NCBI GenBank assembly: GCA_002104985.1
Contig: MCGO01000005.1
Span: 682,001-746,000 of the forward strand
Reading direction: 5' to 3'
Origin: Rhizoclosmatium globosum
Lineage: Eukaryota; Chytridiomycota; Chytridiomycetes; Chytridiales; Chytriomycetaceae
Length of the DNA: 64,000 nt
Shown one piece after another: positions 1,344 to 58,980 of this stretch. Position 1 is the first letter of the stretch, and every line of letters begins with the position of its first letter. A model generated the notes under the pieces. It made no database searches. It saw nothing but the letters and a program-made list of their open reading frames with translations, and had not been told where the DNA came from. The position numbers and the translations under genes were made by a program.

Positions 1344-3599
1344 GATGCAATTCTCGAACGAGAGCCACGCCCTGTCGACACTTCGGCAGAATCTCGGCAA
1401 AGGCTCAGACGCGGTTCTTCTCGATGTTCTCAGCAAGCGCGCCTGCCGTCGTCGCTCGGGATTGCCCTTGATGAGCGCAACGTGTTTCTGCTGGTACTCT
1501 CTCCAACCTTGTCTAACGCCAACTTCAACTTAACCAACCAAACCAAACCAAACAAAGCTCGGAGCGGCGTGCGGAGCCTGGGCCAACATCGCGTCATCGC
1601 CGAGTGCCGGGGCGTCACTTGGTTGGTTCGCATTGAATTCATTCGTTTGTTTGCATCAACTGACCCCACCAATCGAACACTGTCCTGCAACTCGACTCGA
1701 CTCGACCCAATTCAGACGCCTTGTTCCGCATCTTCAAAAACGTGTCGCAATCGCCGGCCGCCTGGAACGTGGCCGTTGAGTCGGTTGCAACGCACATTGC
1801 CGATCTGTTGGCTGCTGTCAGAAACACGGGAAACTTTTCTTTGCTGGCTGTGGCTGTGAAGGCGTCAGTAACGTTGTTCAGTGAGGGAATCAGCGCGTGA
1901 GTCTGGCTGTTTGTATGGGCTCCTTATTCATCACTTGTCAGTCCCTGCTGGCTACCTCCTCGGATTCTCAGAGAAACACTCGTTCTATATATTCGTGAAC
2001 CATCTCGATTCTTTTCTGTTGCAAAGCTGCTTCTCGTTCACATCAACTCAATCATTGCTCATGCAAAACCTTTTGACCACGATTCAACGGCAGTTGTAGT
2101 CGGCTTCCTCATCAACACAACGTCAGTTATTTTTACTATTGCTGTCCTATATTTGCTGAGATTCAATTCATCAAAGGTCGACTGTGGTTTCTGCGAATCT
2201 ACACCAAGCCCCAGATTTCAAAACATTCAACTATGGAATGACGTGCATTTACATTCCCTTCTCGAAAAACAGCAAACAAACACAAAAGACTTTCTCCTCA
2301 CAAAGAGTTATTTCTCACCACCATACTAAGTGCTGATGAGCTTGTGTGTGGACATCCCTCTCTTGACGTGGATCCATCATCAATTTCTCCTGATAACCTC
2401 GTTTTATCAGTCTTGTATTTAATGTCGTTGACGATATCCGTCTCAGAAGTTGCGATTGAAATGCTGTCGCCATCTCAGGACCAAATACAGCCATTCACGT
2501 GTTTCCTTAACCTGCTGGACAGCATTCCGTCTATCACACTGTTGATACATTTTGATTCTCCGTCAAATACGCTTTACGTTCATCTTGTTACTTCTCTGGT
2601 TGTCTTTGCGCAAACAATACCGAGTGAGCTCTGGGTAAATGGATTCGAGCGTGCGATATTTGAAAGCTTTGTGGCATCAGAAACTTTGCTAGTTAAAGTC
2701 TTGTGTTTGGAAGTACTTCTGCTTTTATGTGAAGAAGGTACGCTTTGCACATTTTTGTGAATCCTCACCAAACTCAAATGCCACAGTCCCTCATGAAATT
2801 ATTGCGCATTGGCTCGACGTATGTGAATCGATATTGGCGAGTAATCCTCAAAACTGGATACTATGTAGTCTGACAGGAACACTCGCGCGAAATCTTCTCG
2901 AGAAAGAAACAGTAAAGCTGCGAGCAGCAGGACTCATTGAACAACAACGTGACTGGTTGAATATGTCCAACAATCTTCTTCTCGGCGCGTCAAAATGGAT
3001 GTGGACTCAAGGTGGAACGGGCCGGACAGACGCAACCGGCCATTTGTACTTGGACTTGTCGTTGGGTCTATGGAACACGTTTTTAGGAATGGTTGATGAT
3101 GAAGGCGCGAGTCCTCAGCAGACTATTGGGGTCCTTGAGGGTCTGAGCTGGCCGATTCGGTTTTTAAAGGCGAGTTTAGGGCAGGTTTCGACAGCGGATG
3201 CAACGTTCGAACCTGTTGCTGATGCTGTTGTATGTCTGTTGGAAGGGATGGCGGGCGCTTTTGAAGTTGTTGAAGGATTTAAAAATGAAGGAGTGGACGT
3301 CATTGGTATGCTGTGTCATGTAAGTATAACTTGCATTTATTTACTACTATTTATTCATGCTCTTTAGTTGCACCGGACAGTTTCTGAGCTCTTGGAGGTT
3401 GTTGAAGTTTTTGAAAGAAGTCTGTCTCTGGAGCAGAAAAGTAGGGTAATTCAAACACTCCAAGAATGGATTGTATCAGAGACAAATGGATCATACTTGC
3501 CTCAAGTTCAGAGTGAGTCTTAACTACTTTGCATTTCGATCAATTTAATCAATCTTTATTTTAGGTATACGAGTAATGGAAATACTTAATAAAAAGTAG
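1344..3599 (+). CDS. Hypothetical multi-exon helical protein
   Basis: I do not recognise this protein. Well-supported exons are about 1716-1896, 1972-2121, 2177-2242, 2289-2737, 2787-3319, 3368-3512 and 3565-3599; all junctions keep phase with GT-AG introns of 46-75 nt. The product is leucine-rich and mostly helical, with stretches such as HIADLLAAVRNTGNFSLLAV and ILASNPQNWILCSLTGTLAR, which suggests an ARM/HEAT-like repeat fold, but no repeat register is clear. The first exon is not settled: the ATG at 1344 opens a plausible frame but its donor is weak, and this start lies only 36 nt after the DRC11 stop. The stop codon is 2 nt from the stop of the convergent gene below. No signal peptide or membrane segment is seen. 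Confidence 0.6.
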
Positions 3600-46348: not shown

Positions 46349-49133
<2,785 letters not shown>

Positions 49134-49313: not shown

Positions 49314-50080
49314 TTATTCTACACTTTCCAAGCCTAGACGCCGAAGTTTCCGTCGCTGAACCACCTTTCCCATTTGCACTACTCGGTCAACGCCATTAAT
49401 CTTTTTATACATCCCACACGCATTACAGAGTCGATTGCCTGTTGGTTTTTAGAATCAGTTGATTTTGGATGAGAAATGGAGGGTACGCCACCTTCAGCAT
49501 CGCGTCTCCACATTGGCGTCCGTGTAGCATTACAGTTTTTACACGTGAACTGATTAAGATTTGACTGCTGTACTGAAGAAGAAGGCCCCGGATACGACAT
49601 GGAAGCCGAACGCAGCTGATGATGTGGAGTTGAAGGAGGAGCGGGTGGCGGTGGCGTAGGCAGAGGAACCGAAGCCTTCAAACTCCGCATCATCAACCGA
49701 TCTTCCTCCTCCGATTCCTCCTGAACAACCAACGTCGTTGCTGGATCCAACAACAAATCCGGGCCAATCAAACCATCCCCAAAGTCCCCAAAGTAACTTG
49801 ACAGCGACGCAGCCGACAGCGACGGCACCGGTCGCGTTGGGGCAGCCAGACTGTATAGAGTGGGTTCGGAGTGGTGCCGCGACATGAGTTGGTTGAACTG
49901 GTTGTCCAGGTCCATGTTGAACATAAGAAGGGGCGATTCGAGGGAATCCGTGTCATCTGCGGAATCGCCGTCTCGCCCGAGTCCTTCGCTGGAGAATAGG
50001 GACTCTGGGAGTGTGAAGGGGGATAGGAACGTGTTGGAGGAGTGGGCACTTTTGAACGGCGACGGTTGGAGTGGGTCCAT
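49314..50080 (-). CDS. GATA-type zinc finger transcription factor
   Basis: Two exons, 50080-49492 and 49438-49314, give 237 aa. A single C-terminal GATA finger spans the intron: CKNCNATRTPMWRRDAEG then NRLCNACGMYKKINGVDR, i.e. C-X2-C-X17-C-X2-C. The basic tail KVVQRRKLRRLG follows. The N-terminal part is Ser/Pro/Asp-rich (LGRDGDSADDTDSLESPLLM), like an activation domain. Without the spliced second exon the finger is incomplete. In fungi such factors control nitrogen use, light response or siderophore genes; nothing here tells which. Confidence 0.88.
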
Positions 50081-50512: not shown

Positions 50513-53500
50513 ATGCCCAGTGTTCCTCTTCAGCCAGGCGACGATGCTACTCCACCAAACGGTGAGCACCCTTGATCCCAAACGCACCCTTCTAACCTCT
50601 AAAGTTAATTTATTCTCTTTATCGAATCAGGAGTTTCGCAGGACAATCTGAATGGCATCGCGCTGATCATCGCAGCTTCTGCTGGCTTCTCTACAGCACC
50701 GCCCCACGCCGCATTCCACCCATCAGCAATCCATTACGACGTCAATGTCTCTCCTGCAGCTCTTATATTGTCAACAACAATCGAATTTGAAAATCCGCAC
50801 TTTAGAGTCAACCCAGATGGCAAAACTGAATCAATGGTTGTCAATGCAAAGGTGGCCAAGTCAATCGCAGTCCCTGAATCAAATCAAAAACTATGCCTTA
50901 TTTCCACATCGTTCCAAGACTGGAATGAGATTACCAACGAGTGGACGGATATTTCGACGGCGATCGCATATACTGCTCAAGCGAAAGCGGTTGTTGATGC
51001 TGTTGTGGCAACACAAAGCAATCAAACGGCTGGAATGGCTAGTTCGACGGTCGATTCCTTTGATGTCACGTTGGGTCCTGTTGGAAAGAAGGGTCGGATA
51101 CTCCTCACGTTCTCTTGTGGCGTTCCATATTTGTATGATGCGATGGGATTGAAGGACGATGGAACTGATATAGGAAAAGGTCGACTTCTTCCTGTCGCTT
51201 TGTTTCTGCCATGGGCGACTCTGAGTGATTCTAATGGCGCTTGCGCGCTCTCATTTGCCTTTAATGTACCAGAAGGATCCACGATTTTGTCGACTGAAGA
51301 ATGTGGAGATGCGTACCGTCATTTACATGAACAGAATTTGCTTCATGATGCTTCCATGATAGTAGTTGGTTCCCTCAAAAATGTTGAAGACGGCGCTACA
51401 GCTGAATATGCTTGGCCTTGTCTTCCAATTGCTCCCACGTTTGTCTTGCTGTGGCTAAATATACCTCACGATGATGACTTCGGGTTCGAGATGCTTTCCA
51501 TTGAGGATGCTATTCCAAATGAATCAAACACACGAATCACTATTCTCGAACCCAACTCAGAAGATCGTATTTTAATGACGCAATCTATGCCTGGCGCTGG
51601 CTATAACCCTGTCCAGCTCACGCGAATCCGTATTGACGCTCCAAAGAAAACGTTTCTAAGAGCAACACCTCAAATGATATTCAACATCACATTGTCAGAT
51701 GCAAGTGGAAGCACTGGAATGCTTTGTGGATCGACTTCCTCAACTGTCCGAATTCAATTCAATGAAATGGCGAAGCGTAGATTCTTAAAGCGTATTTTCA
51801 GTATACCTCTGCTTTTAGAATCAGGAATTCTTTTGCCCGAAGACGTGTGGACTGACCTGGTGATCACATTTGATGGAGATATTCGCGCCAGAGAACTTGT
51901 AACGTTCAAAGTGTCCGACTTCAAGCCCGAAAGCCTTTCGTTCGATGTAACGACAGGAAAAGTGAAACTTGCTTCCATTGAGACAAGTCCGTCCTTCAAA
52001 GTTGCTCAAGATATTATTGCTTTTGTTAACTGTATTGAATCAGTTTCGCCAGGAGGAATGACTGATTTTGTCAAACCAGCCCAGTCTGCCACATCTTTGA
52101 TTGATAGCCTAATAGCCAAGTCGCTAAAATTGAGTCCATTGTTAACTCCCGATGCCATCAAGAGTTTCATTGATTTCGACACAGATGGTGGACACAATGG
52201 AACTAGTGGCGATGTGACTGTCGCTATCTCTGCTCTGATCAAAAAAGCTCGCGTACAGAACGGAATTTTGACTGGCTTCGGAGCATGGGTTGATCAGGAC
52301 ATCGCAAGTAAAGTGGCGGCCCTGTTGGGCCCAACACCTGCACTCCTTGGCCTTCACGTCCCGCAGTTTGGACACGAGGGAATGGATCGTGTTTTTTCAA
52401 CTGGCTTTAAAGCTTGGGTTGATTTTTTGAGAGCTGAGATTTTGGAAGTATCTGTCACTGCTGGTGCATTCAGCAAGAATGTGGATACTTTACAAGTAAT
52501 GTTTGCCAAGTGCCACAACTCAAAGATTGAATTTGGTCCTGTTGATGTTAGCGATGTGGATTTCACTGGAATTACGGTCAAGGGGGTTAAAAGTGGGGAA
52601 TCCCTTGAATTATATGCTTTGAGCCGTGTGGATGCTAAAACTTTGGCGCAACAAATTCAAGTCAAAATCAATGGAGTCATTCAAAAGTCAGTCGATCAAT
52701 TTATCAAGAAGGATTTATTGGCAGGAAATTCGCTTGCATTTGACTGGCTCTCCGTAGCTGCTGATACCGACAATTCAGTTGTGAAGAGAAGTCCTTTGGC
52801 AGTACAGAATCTGGTCTCGAGAATTGAAGATAATATCTCATTCGCTTACAATATTCCCACGGTGGGGGGAAGCACTGCGTACCTGGGGCGTGCCTTCAAT
52901 GGAGCAAACAGAGCTGCAATCAATAAGGCTCAGCAGCCTCCTGAAGCATCACTAAGTACTTTGTTAGTGCCCTATTCCAATGTCATTACAAACTACTCGC
53001 CACTATCTCCAAGATACAGCCCACTCTCACCAAATTATTCTCCAACTTCTACTGCGACGACTCCGACTGCCTCTGTATACGTTCGCAAAGCAAGTATACC
53101 ACCAACAACCAACACACAATCAGTGCCTGTTAGTTCTCCGAAATACTCACCCACTTCTCCAAACTACTCTCCAACAAGCCCAACTTACACCCCCACCGCT
53201 CCCCAGTTTTCTCCAACAAGCCCTTCCTATGCTCCAACTTCTTCAAGCCACACCGCAGACGCACCTTACGTGCCTACAAGCCCGTCATACTCTCCAGCCG
53301 CTCCAAGTTATGTACCTACAAGCCCTTCATACGTTCCAACTTCGTCAAACAGCACTTCTACAAGCGCATCATACGTTCCACCCGAAAATAACAAAACTGC
53401 CCCATCGTACACACCAAGTAGTGCTTTTTGCGTCCCAATGTCGGCGCCATCCATCCCTTCACCATTTATTCCGTCTTGGTCTCAACAGGCGACGAAATTA

Positions 53501-53893
53501 CGGAAATCCAACGTACGTGATCATTGGTCTGATATGTTGCTTCGGTCTGGCCATTTACGTGTCTCGCTGGCTGTTGATACAAACCCTTTGGAACCTTTAA
53601 GAAAAATGATGGAAGCTGCAGCTGGGAATGACTTGTCAACCGGTTTGGGTGGGGATAAGTGGGATAAGTCGTTTAGGGAGTTTTCTGAATGGGTAAACTC
53701 CTGTATGATTCGGAGGTTATTGATGGTGTTGATGGATTGGTGGTGTTTGTTGAGAATTAGTTATCCAGGATTACCTGTGGAATTGGATACATCGATTTTT
53801 GCTCGATTGACTACTGGTTTGGGTGGAAGTCGAACAGATTTGTATGAAGCTGGACTTTCTGTGATTGAGATGCTCAAGGCATACACATTGTGA
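50513..53893 (+). CDS. Large protein with RNA polymerase II CTD-like heptad repeats
   Basis: Exons 50513-50561 and 50631-53893 give 1103 aa. The first ~780 residues are a globular, beta-rich region without a motif I can name (IHYDVNVSPAALILSTTIEF, LLPVALFLPWATLSDSNG). Residues about 803-925 contain about a dozen heptads of the form Y-[S/V/A/T]-P-T-S-P-[S/N/T], such as YSPTSPNYSPTSPTYTPT and APYVPTSPSYSPAAPSYVPT, as in the Rpb1 CTD. A structured C-terminal domain follows (HWSDMLLRSGHLRVSLAVD to VIEMLKAYTL). There is no polymerase catalytic sequence anywhere. The start MPSVPLQPGDD is the first Met in the frame that runs on across the intron. Confidence 0.75.
52990..53400 (+). repeat. CTD-like heptad repeat array
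   Basis: About twelve 21-nt-register units encoding YSPTSPx-type heptads, partly interrupted by Thr/Ser/Asn-rich spacers. In about half of the units Ser2 is replaced by Val, Ala or Thr while Thr4-Ser5-Pro6 is kept. Codon choice differs between units, so they are not a very recent DNA-level expansion. Confidence 0.85.
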
Positions 53894-56302: not shown

Positions 56303-58980
56303 ATGATACGACGACCAGCATCGATTGCGCCAGATGTCTGGACAGCGCTCCCACCGGACATCCAGGCCGAGCTTTCCGCCGCAGAAACAGACCAGCCAAT
56401 CAACGTCGACAATGGCCCAGTCCCGCCTGGAATCGACGCAACTGTCTGGGCTTCGCTTCCACCCGAATTGCGTTCTGAGTTCATTTCAGCGCCCGATTCG
56501 CCGCCTCCTTCGTCGTCGTCTTCTTCTTTCGCTTTGGTTTCGTTTGGTCGCCGGTCGTTGCCGCTACGTCTTCCAAAAGAGGCTGAGTCAGCGACAACAA
56601 CAACAACGTGGATCTACTCCGTCGCGCCGGACACAGAGCGCCAACCAGCCTCTGCCGCGCCGCTTCTTAATGCCACCGAACTGTGGACGGACGAAAAGTT
56701 TGTGGCGGACGCGTCGGCGATTGTGAGCGATGATTCTTTGGTATTCGGCTTTAATCGTGCTCCCAGGATGGATTCAGGGTTGCAGAGTCTTCTCCTTCAA
56801 CTGCAACTGTATCACCTGTGAATCCTAAATGCGGATGCAACAAGGCGGCAAGACTGAAAACTGTGTACAAGGAAAACAAGAACCACGGAAGAAAGTTCTT
56901 TGCATGCGCTGCACCTCAAGCGAAAGGCTGCTCATTCTTTATGTGGGCTCCTGAAACTGGCCAGTTTGCTCTGCGGCATTCAAAGGAACACACGTCAATT
57001 GAATGGAAACGACTATCGCTGAACCTACTCGCATCGCCCTCAGATGAATACTCACCGAATCATATTCGCCAAGGTCGAGTTGGTGATTGTTGGTTCGTAT
57101 CAGCACTTTCAGTCATTGCAGAAAACCCGGCACTCCTTCACCGTGTCTTGCCCTCCCAACCTGGTCCCAAACACGGATACTTTCTGGCACGTTTCTTTAT
57201 TGATGGAAAATGGCAGGAATACTGTGTCGACAACTATTTTCCTCTCATGCCACCTGAACAAGTCAAAAAATCAACTGTCGCTTCACATCCAGGTCCACAC
57301 CTGTACTTTGCGAAAGCAGTCAACAAAAATATATGGGTTCCTGTTCTCGAAAAAGCATATGCGAAGGCACACTCCTCGTATCAAGCCATCAGTGGTGGCC
57401 AGATTGCAGAAGCTTTATTTGACCTGACTGGATTCCCCACTGAATCTATTCCCTTTGGTGGTATTGGATTCGACAGTGAACTATTTTGGACTCGCCTGCT
57501 TTCGTTTCAAAGTCAGGGATTCCTGATGGGTGCTGTATGCCCCCAGTCTGGAGACGGTCTTGTCGGTGGACACGCGTATTCTCTATTGCAAGTGGTGGAA
57601 GAGTCGATTGAAGACGGTTTGGTGATTGGAAAAACCAAGAATCTTCACGACTACTTTGACGCCGGCGTTAAGCGAAAGTGGGATGATACGCAAGAATTCG
57701 GTGTCACGGATCATGGAACACTCCGACTCATTAAGCTAAGAAATCCATGGGGAAAAGTAGAATGGAAAGGAAAGTTTGGAGTCGATAGCGCGGAATGGTC
57801 TTCAAGCCTCCGAAAACGACTCAATCACGATCAAAAGGAAGACGAAGGCGGCGGTGTGTTTTGGATATCGTACCATGATTTCCTAACGCGATTCAGTCAA
57901 GTGGATGTTTGCTTCACGCACCTAACACATCAACTCCTCAACATTGAATGTACTCTTCCACCCGGCCTATCTATCGCTACATCGTCCATAATAGAGCTCT
58001 CAGTTCCAGACCCAACTCTCATCTACATATCGCTTTGTCAACGCACGAAACGCGGGAAACCCGCCGAAGACTTTTACTACACAGACCTAAACCTACTCCT
58101 CCTCACACTCTCCGACAACGACCCAACAGAAATCGTTTCCATCCAAGATCTGCGTATGTTCGGTCAAGGGCGAGACAACCATTTCGACTTGTTTCTTGGT
58201 GAACGAGGACGTGTGGTGCGATATCTTCTTGTCCCATTCTCTGTAGAACGCGAAACAGCGATACAAGAAGCGAAAGTCTTTAAGAAGGGAATGAATCGTG
58301 TGGGGAGTGGAGAGAGTAAACAGTTGACGTTGAAGGGCCTTGAATTTACTGTTCGGATAATGAGTGCGAATTGTGTTGGTGCGTCGTTTCGGAAGTGGAA
58401 GGGTGGAAATACAGATTTTGTGTGGGATGCGGTTGAACGAGGGATTTGTGACACAACACTTGTTGGGAGGTCAGGGCTTAACGGCTCGTTGAATCTGGTT
58501 TGTTTTCATGTGTTTTCTCAAAGAGTTATGACTGAAATTCGTGGTTAGGTGAAACAAATGAACCTTCCAACTCCGTTCTACTATACTGCCCCGCGTGATA
58601 CTTGGGTTTCACAGTACCAAGGTGTATGGACCTCTCATAATTTCACTCTCCGTCTAGTAGAATCACGAGGACTCGCGCTCGCGCATTTTACAAATACCCA
58701 CGAGAAGCTTTGGATTCGTATTCGCGTCGAACTTCGTGCAGCAACCAAGACGTATAATTCTACTCAACAGAGTGTGTGGAGAGTCGTTCCACCAAAGACT
58801 CGCCGTATTATTGGAAGCTGCGTTTGTCCGAGTTGGGAAGGTGTATATGGTCATCAAGTTATCGCGATGGGTAATATAGAATGGGAGTCGTTTGTTGGAG
58901 GTTGCCAATGTGAGGATTTGGGAGACATGGAATGTGGATGCCGTGTATCAGGATTATTTGGCGAATATGCAATCATTTAG
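56303..58980 (+). CDS. Calpain-type cysteine protease with two UBM-like motifs and a GRF zinc finger
   Basis: Exons 56303-56722, 56767-58497 and 58549-58980 give 860 aa. Residues 8-24 (IAPDVWTALPPDIQAEL) and 44-60 (IDATVWASLPPELRSEF) both match the ubiquitin-binding-motif pattern with a central Leu-Pro. At about 157-195 there is a GRF-type zinc finger: CGCNKAARLKTV, then GRKFFACAAPQAKGCSFFMW. The calpain core has all three catalytic residues: Cys in QGRVGDCWFVSALS (about 246), His in GGHAYSLL (about 409) and Asn in RNPWG (about 466). C2-like/CBSW-like beta domains complete the protein (FYYTAPRDTWVSQYQGVWTS, CGCRVSGLFGEYAII). No EF-hands. Both introns keep phase 0; the second was needed to join the C-terminal domain. 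Confidence 0.85.

Follow-up and report, generated by a model that had tools for sequence, protein, structure and literature searches.

The Rhizoclosmatium globosum gene at positions 50513-53893 (+) of the window (the whole stretch of DNA analysed, 64,000 nucleotides) appears, from its sequence and predicted structure, to be a paralogue in the VIT-vWFA family that lacks the ZZ finger and bears 12 heptads resembling the C-terminal domain (CTD) of RNA polymerase II in a disordered tether. Comparison across the family suggests that its product is a repeatedly evolved mimic of the polymerase tail, with a putative function. Our preferred reading, to which we assign a probability of about 0.4, is that the heptads imitate the CTD and act as a docking segment within the tether that joins the vWFA body to the C-terminal region.

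Gene structure and reading frame

The gene has two exons and encodes a product of 1103 amino acids, BCR33DRAFT_846377 (P0001).

50513..50561, + strand: exon 1, residues 1-16 and the first base of codon 17, from the sequence and a by-eye match to the start of P0001
50562..50630, + strand: intron 1, 69 bases, GT..AG, with in-frame stops; boundaries taken from the sequence and fixed by P0001
50631..53893, + strand: exon 2, an open frame holding the remaining coding sequence and the stop codon

P0001 and the window product are 100% identical across the 1041 residues searched, the start and the splice being matched by eye. The frame of exon 2 is also open in a second copy on contig C16, which is 98% identical and has the same gene neighbourhood as the window and is therefore probably the other haplotype; its heptad array is retained, with a single residue of 160 changed. 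Same-frame homology of the region after the heptads to the paralogue P0003 rules out a frame or annotation artefact and, since the C16 copy also has the array, the reading frame is not in doubt.

Several neighbouring features of the window were recorded. In one frame, positions 56818-58548 encode a protease of the calpain family that has a GRF zinc ribbon at its N-terminus, to our knowledge an unusual pairing. A GATA-type zinc finger at 49379-50080 (-) matches 18 of 36 profile positions (23.5 bits vs a cut-off of 26.8) and is perhaps cut by an intron, and the Hsp90 gene at 47265-49133 is overlapped on the opposite strand by an open frame of 361 codons (47253-48338).

Predicted fold and domain architecture

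The folded parts of the protein are as follows.

50633..52951, + strand: N-terminal body, residues 18-790, with VIT-like beta-sandwich, hybrid and vWFA domains as in ITIH1 (predicted)
51668..52435, + strand: vWFA domain, about residues 363-618
51698..51712, + strand: MIDAS DxSxS (Asp373-Ala-Ser-Gly-Ser377), invariant in the 14-sequence alignment
52061-52063 and 52184-52186, + strand: further MIDAS residues, Thr494 and Asp535 respectively, invariant in the 14-sequence alignment
53591..53887, + strand: C-terminal helical region, residues 1004-1102, from predicted helices and BLASTP to P0003

A Foldseek search with the predicted structure identifies ITIH1 (6fpy) as the best fold match of the body, and the vWFA domain has the fold that characterizes VIT-vWFA proteins (ITIH/VWA5A/Vwa1); the predicted architecture of the body is that of the intracellular VWA5A and Vwa1. 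The residues D373-x-S375-x-S377, T494 and D535 are the same in all 14 alignment rows, and by motif we take Asp373/Ser375/Ser377, Thr494 and Asp535 to form the MIDAS. Below the ITIH1 entries, the top-ranking Foldseek match is a chain from the doublet microtubule of the T. brucei flagellum (9e5c_4s, E 5e-11), a possible flagellar connection for this zoosporic fungus.

For the predicted C-terminal helices pLDDT stays below 50 as far as residue 1035 and is about 55-71 beyond it. BLASTP shows homology between this region and the C-terminal end of P0003, a ZZ paralogue (25% identity over 100 columns, E 1e-9). Pfam analysis of P0001 returned no ZZ finger at E up to 1 and no polymerase domain, and the stretches that best match Rpb1 chains fall in the region of the heptads (about query 785-871, with one weak row from 750). 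An extracellular adhesive repeat is disfavoured: the start of the protein has, by eye, no look of a signal peptide, and the nearest architecture is intracellular according to the available part of PMC10539598.

Heptad array and linker

The linker between the folded parts is predicted to be disordered and contains 12 heptads in register, in blocks of three, five and four within residues 805-923.

52967..53590, + strand: disordered linker, residues 796-1003 (pLDDT under 50 for residues 796-1035)
52994..53056, + strand: heptad block 1, residues 805-825, YSPLSPR YSPLSPN YSPTSTA
53144..53248, + strand: heptad block 2, residues 855-889, YSPTSPN YSPTSPT YTPTAPQ FSPTSPS YAPTSSS
53267..53350, + strand: heptad block 3, residues 896-923, YVPTSPS YSPAAPS YVPTSPS YVPTSSN

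These observations bear out an earlier note made from the DNA, which had described a protein of 1103 residues without Rpb1 sequence and with about twelve YSPTSPS-like heptads between two folded regions. Ten of the 12 heptads match YSPTSPS at five or more of seven positions and two match at four; none is perfect. The Pfam Rpb1-repeat model, RNA_pol_Rpb1_R, scores 23.8 bits in a six-frame search of the genome (cut-off 20.3) and 17.4 bits, below that cut-off, on the whole protein. The array shares the tandem YSPTSPS repetition of the Rpb1 CTD, but does not lie at the tail of a polymerase. A simple scan of the linker found one basic cluster, KLRK at residue 972.

In Rpb1, Ser2-Pro3 and Ser5-Pro6 are the sites used by CTD kinases, isomerases and CID readers. 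Each of the two is intact in 7 of the 12 heptads, and this count rules out the bias for Ser5-type over Ser2-type phosphorylation that had been proposed on the ground that about half of the heptads replace Ser2 and keep Thr4-Ser5-Pro6. Ser2 is replaced in five heptads, of which only two keep T4-S5-P6.

Chance composition was rejected as a source of the array. For residues 831-1000, with 7 of the 10 counted heptads, 2,000 shuffles gave a mean of 0.34 and a maximum of 3, and for the 214 residues 771-984 no tandem run of five was reached in 1,000 shuffles (maximum 2), although shuffling is a weak control for repeats born by slippage; the stronger argument against chance is the consensus common to separate places of the family. 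The two locus copies differ at 2 of 162 codons in the heptad linker vs 48 of 879 in the rest of the compared frame (Fisher p 0.016), a low divergence that rests on two differences and could be due to chance or gene conversion.

Distribution of heptads in the VIT-vWFA family

Searches with the window protein, a 14-row alignment and P0015 gave 20 distinct family proteins, which are a sample of the family because each search scored about 8,000 candidates sharing most words; the alignment search returned 9 relatives (one of them new) vs 16 by the single-sequence search. A Pfam ZZ finger is present in 10 of the 14 members scanned; the window protein has none. At least two heptads in tandem are found in this linker in 5 of the 20 proteins, or in 5 of 17 when P0004, P0013 and P0017, the records of which end before or in the linker, are set aside; the remaining 12 of these 17 have none. 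P0012, with a single match that lacks an aromatic residue, was left out of the heptad count. The carriers other than the window protein are P0006 from Entophlyctis luteolus (four heptads, ZZ retained), P0015 (four, all perfect), P0018 (two, one perfect; 73% identity to P0015) and P0019 (five in register; 51% identity to P0015). They fall in three separated places, namely Rhizoclosmatium, Entophlyctis and a protist clade of P0015, P0018 and P0019 that is perhaps Picozoa; COSAG01, the source of P0015, we take to be picozoan. The name COSAG01 appears in the accessible part of a Picozoa paper (PMC8599508).

The same genome encodes two sister genes (C168/C56 and C24/C61, each apparently a haplotype pair) that are 62-64% identical to the window gene over the body; their linkers are rich in FG or Q, and a ZZ finger can be made out by eye. 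No heptads turned up when these four loci were scanned; C-terminal homology of the sister copies to the window protein was found for P0003. In a tree of 20 rows (P0001-P0016 and four genome loci, without P0017-P0020; the branch of P0016 is long, and P0012 and P0014 are of unlike make-up) the window pair is sister to the ZZ copies, on a branch of 0.41 vs 0.14 for the sister group, so that loss of ZZ and gain of heptads on the window branch is the simplest reading. P0001, P0006 and P0015 stand apart with heptad-free proteins in between, so the array must have been gained three times or more, unless a single ancient one was lost many times.

The earlier note had held that relatives with both folded regions and no heptads would suggest that the repeats are mere low-complexity filler. 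Such proteins do occur: with 12 of 17 complete linkers and the sister copies heptad-free, the heptads are dispensable for the family. On the other side, recurrence in three separated places is hard to call filler, and the CTD-mimic idea gains weight from distant members whose corresponding linker also bears heptads in tandem.

Of the 18 proteins scored, 15 have between 1 and 13 FG in the linker, counts that are upper bounds because some stretches ran to the C-terminus and that of P0012 started early; the count for the window protein is 0 FG and 21 aromatics, and P0006, P0015, P0018 and P0019 carry FG and heptads together. The FG motifs in P0007, P0008, P0016 and similar family linkers (12-13 FG) are nucleoporin-like.

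Heptads elsewhere in the genome

A search of the same genome with the Rpb1-repeat family gave 39 matches, the counts being lower bounds, which lie in the window pair, in Rpb1 (C407 and C257:112k) and in at least two other genes. The tail of Rpb1 is canonical: 21 of 21 heptads are perfect in the longest block read vs 0 of 12 in the window array, so that CTD recognition may have decayed in the latter. The Rpb1 heptads on C407 (L041, G000:C407:1-5000) shift frame near 3152, where C257 matches in one frame; the shift may be a haplotype difference or an assembly error in the repeat.

One of the other genes encodes an ankyrin protein (L043/L044; G000:C11:51593-52960 and C257:337964-339304) with nine heptads at five or more of seven positions in a C-terminal tail, and an F-box-like start that scores 17.7 bits in Pfam, below the cut-off of 24.3. 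The second is an F-box/LRR protein (L047; G000:C90:266498-268657) with ten heptads at the same threshold and an F-box of 24.1 bits (cut-off 20.5). No heptads were found in seven F-box relatives from two sets of 97 rows. The F-box family is very large here, with at least 150 matches (150 of 486 candidates scored, two haplotypes mixed), and we claim no significance for F-box enrichment among heptad proteins.

Proposed role of the tether and alternative explanations

We infer that the tether binds CTD factors. It would serve as a docking site for proline-directed kinases and for domains that bind the CTD by reading SP-rich YSPTSPS repeats, candidates being CID-type readers, a Pin1/Ess1-type isomerase, and capping or phosphatase factors. 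The vWFA body would bind a partner of its own via the metal site, and docking would bring the body to transcription factors or, as an alternative outcome, keep CTD factors away from the polymerase. Since the tether joins the vWFA domain to a putatively clamping C-terminal region, its phosphorylation or the binding of a reader could open or close the clamp on the vWFA domain; such a clamp is predicted for the C-terminal regions of Dictyostelium Vwa1 and human VWA5A in the available part of PMC10539598. Imitation of the CTD by proteins other than the polymerase has been demonstrated: in yeast, the Nrd1 CID binds CTD mimics in Trf4, Mpp6 and Sen1, and proteins with CTD-like motifs were proposed by the authors to compete with the polymerase (PMC4186968 and PMC7110113, as far as their text was available). 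The fold and architecture, the intact MIDAS motif and the presence of the heptads in frame in both locus copies favour the docking segment, as do the common consensus in three places, the persistence of heptads at 73% and 51% identity and the lower divergence of the heptad linker between locus copies. The two ZZ copies in the same genome and the heptad-free majority of complete linkers speak against it, as does the lack of any perfect heptad in the array.

We rank the docking segment ahead of two other explanations of the heptads. One, which we think possible but unlikely, holds that the linker forms condensates and that its FG-type aromatic stickers were replaced by tyrosines spaced every seven residues, so that the heptads would help the protein to associate weakly with itself or to mix with phases of Pol II or FG, and would not serve specific CTD readers. 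The FG counts of the family, the lack of FG beside 21 aromatics in the window protein and the four proteins that combine FG and heptads fit this explanation, as does the finding that phase separation of the CTD is driven by tyrosine (PMC10519987, in the part available); alone, however, it does not explain why the consensus in separate places of the family is YSPTSPS over any other aromatic spacer repeat. The other, somewhat less probable again, is neutral expansion by slippage in the S/T/P-rich linker of a duplicated, relaxed copy, the heptads having no role. Imperfection of all 12 heptads, absence of ZZ, heptad-free sister copies and the longer branch of the P0001 pair are consistent with it, and the best internal codon repeat, at an offset of 14 codons, exceeds chance only to a modest degree (18 of 500 synonymous shuffles do as well). 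Against neutral expansion stand the recurrence of one consensus in one linker at three separated places, its retention in the P0015 clade at 51-73% identity, and a linker that evolves no faster than the rest between the two locus copies.

Capture of an Rpb1 tail by recombination with RPB1 CTD-coding DNA concerns origin, not function, and appears very improbable. By blastn the array matches the CTD of its own Rpb1 at best at 78% over 72 bases (pairwise E 2e-11), but when the array was shuffled synonymously its codon match to the Rpb1 block was equalled in 86 of 300 cases, so that kinship can be detected no further than the protein level and a recent DNA capture finds no support; an old capture would be erased from the codons.

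Significance and relation to known systems

VIT-vWFA proteins and CTD mimics are already known, and what appears to be new here is the recurrence of tandem CTD heptads in VIT-vWFA linkers. Among the open-access papers listed, judged by title and the opening of the abstract, none deals with a VIT-vWFA or F-box protein that bears CTD heptads, and the open-access literature joining YSPTSPS with 'von Willebrand' concerned TFIIH only. The YSPTSPS array is regarded as particular to the polymerase; one review, in the part available, speaks of the CTD as 'an RNAPII-specific protein segment' (PMC3335468). If such arrays recur in an unrelated family, cells would be employing the CTD code outside the polymerase as well; the arrays would provide natural variants for dissecting the needs of CTD readers and a way into the study of VIT-vWFA proteins, among them VWA5A, the tumour suppressor role of which is called poorly understood in the accessible text of PMC10539598.

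A broader and improbable proposal is that CTD heptads are a portable recruitment tag, acquired repeatedly and independently by VIT-vWFA proteins (in three places of the family) and, in this chytrid, by F-box-type proteins, that could join VIT-vWFA/SCF ubiquitin-ligase modules to the network of CTD readers. If so, the tag could mark CTD-binding factors for turnover or place a ligase at the transcribing polymerase. This proposal is motivated by the heptads on both kinds of protein and by the co-purification of Dictyostelium Vwa1 and Vwa2 with the F-box protein FbxwD and a cullin, which was not seen with native-level tagged Vwa1 or Vwa2 as bait (PMC10539598, available part). Because F-box genes are so many here, heptads on F-box-type proteins are quite possibly a coincidence.

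ITIH heavy chains, represented by ITIH1 (6fpy), offer the best fold match of the body; unlike the window protein, they are secreted animal proteins, and we know of no heptad linker in them. Human VWA5A/BCSC-1 and Dictyostelium Vwa1 resemble the window protein in the predicted VIT-like, hybrid and vWFA body, the MIDAS motif, the long disordered loop and the predicted C-terminal helical region. They differ in that the word heptad is absent from the available text of PMC10539598, and that ZZ occurs in most scanned members of the family of the window protein. The Rpb1 CTD has in common with the array a disordered segment of YSPTSPS-like tandem heptads and a match to RNA_pol_Rpb1_R, whereas the window array is internal, with 12 imperfect copies, no polymerase domain and no recent codon kinship. 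The NIM motifs of yeast Trf4, Mpp6 and Sen1 likewise provide, in a non-polymerase protein, a CTD-like disordered segment for binding a CTD reader (PMC4186968 and PMC7110113, available parts), but are short motifs with an acidic start and no tandem heptads. The F-box-like/ankyrin (C11/C257) and F-box/LRR (C90) proteins of the same genome, whose folded parts are unrelated to those of the window protein, are further non-polymerase proteins that carry CTD-like heptads.
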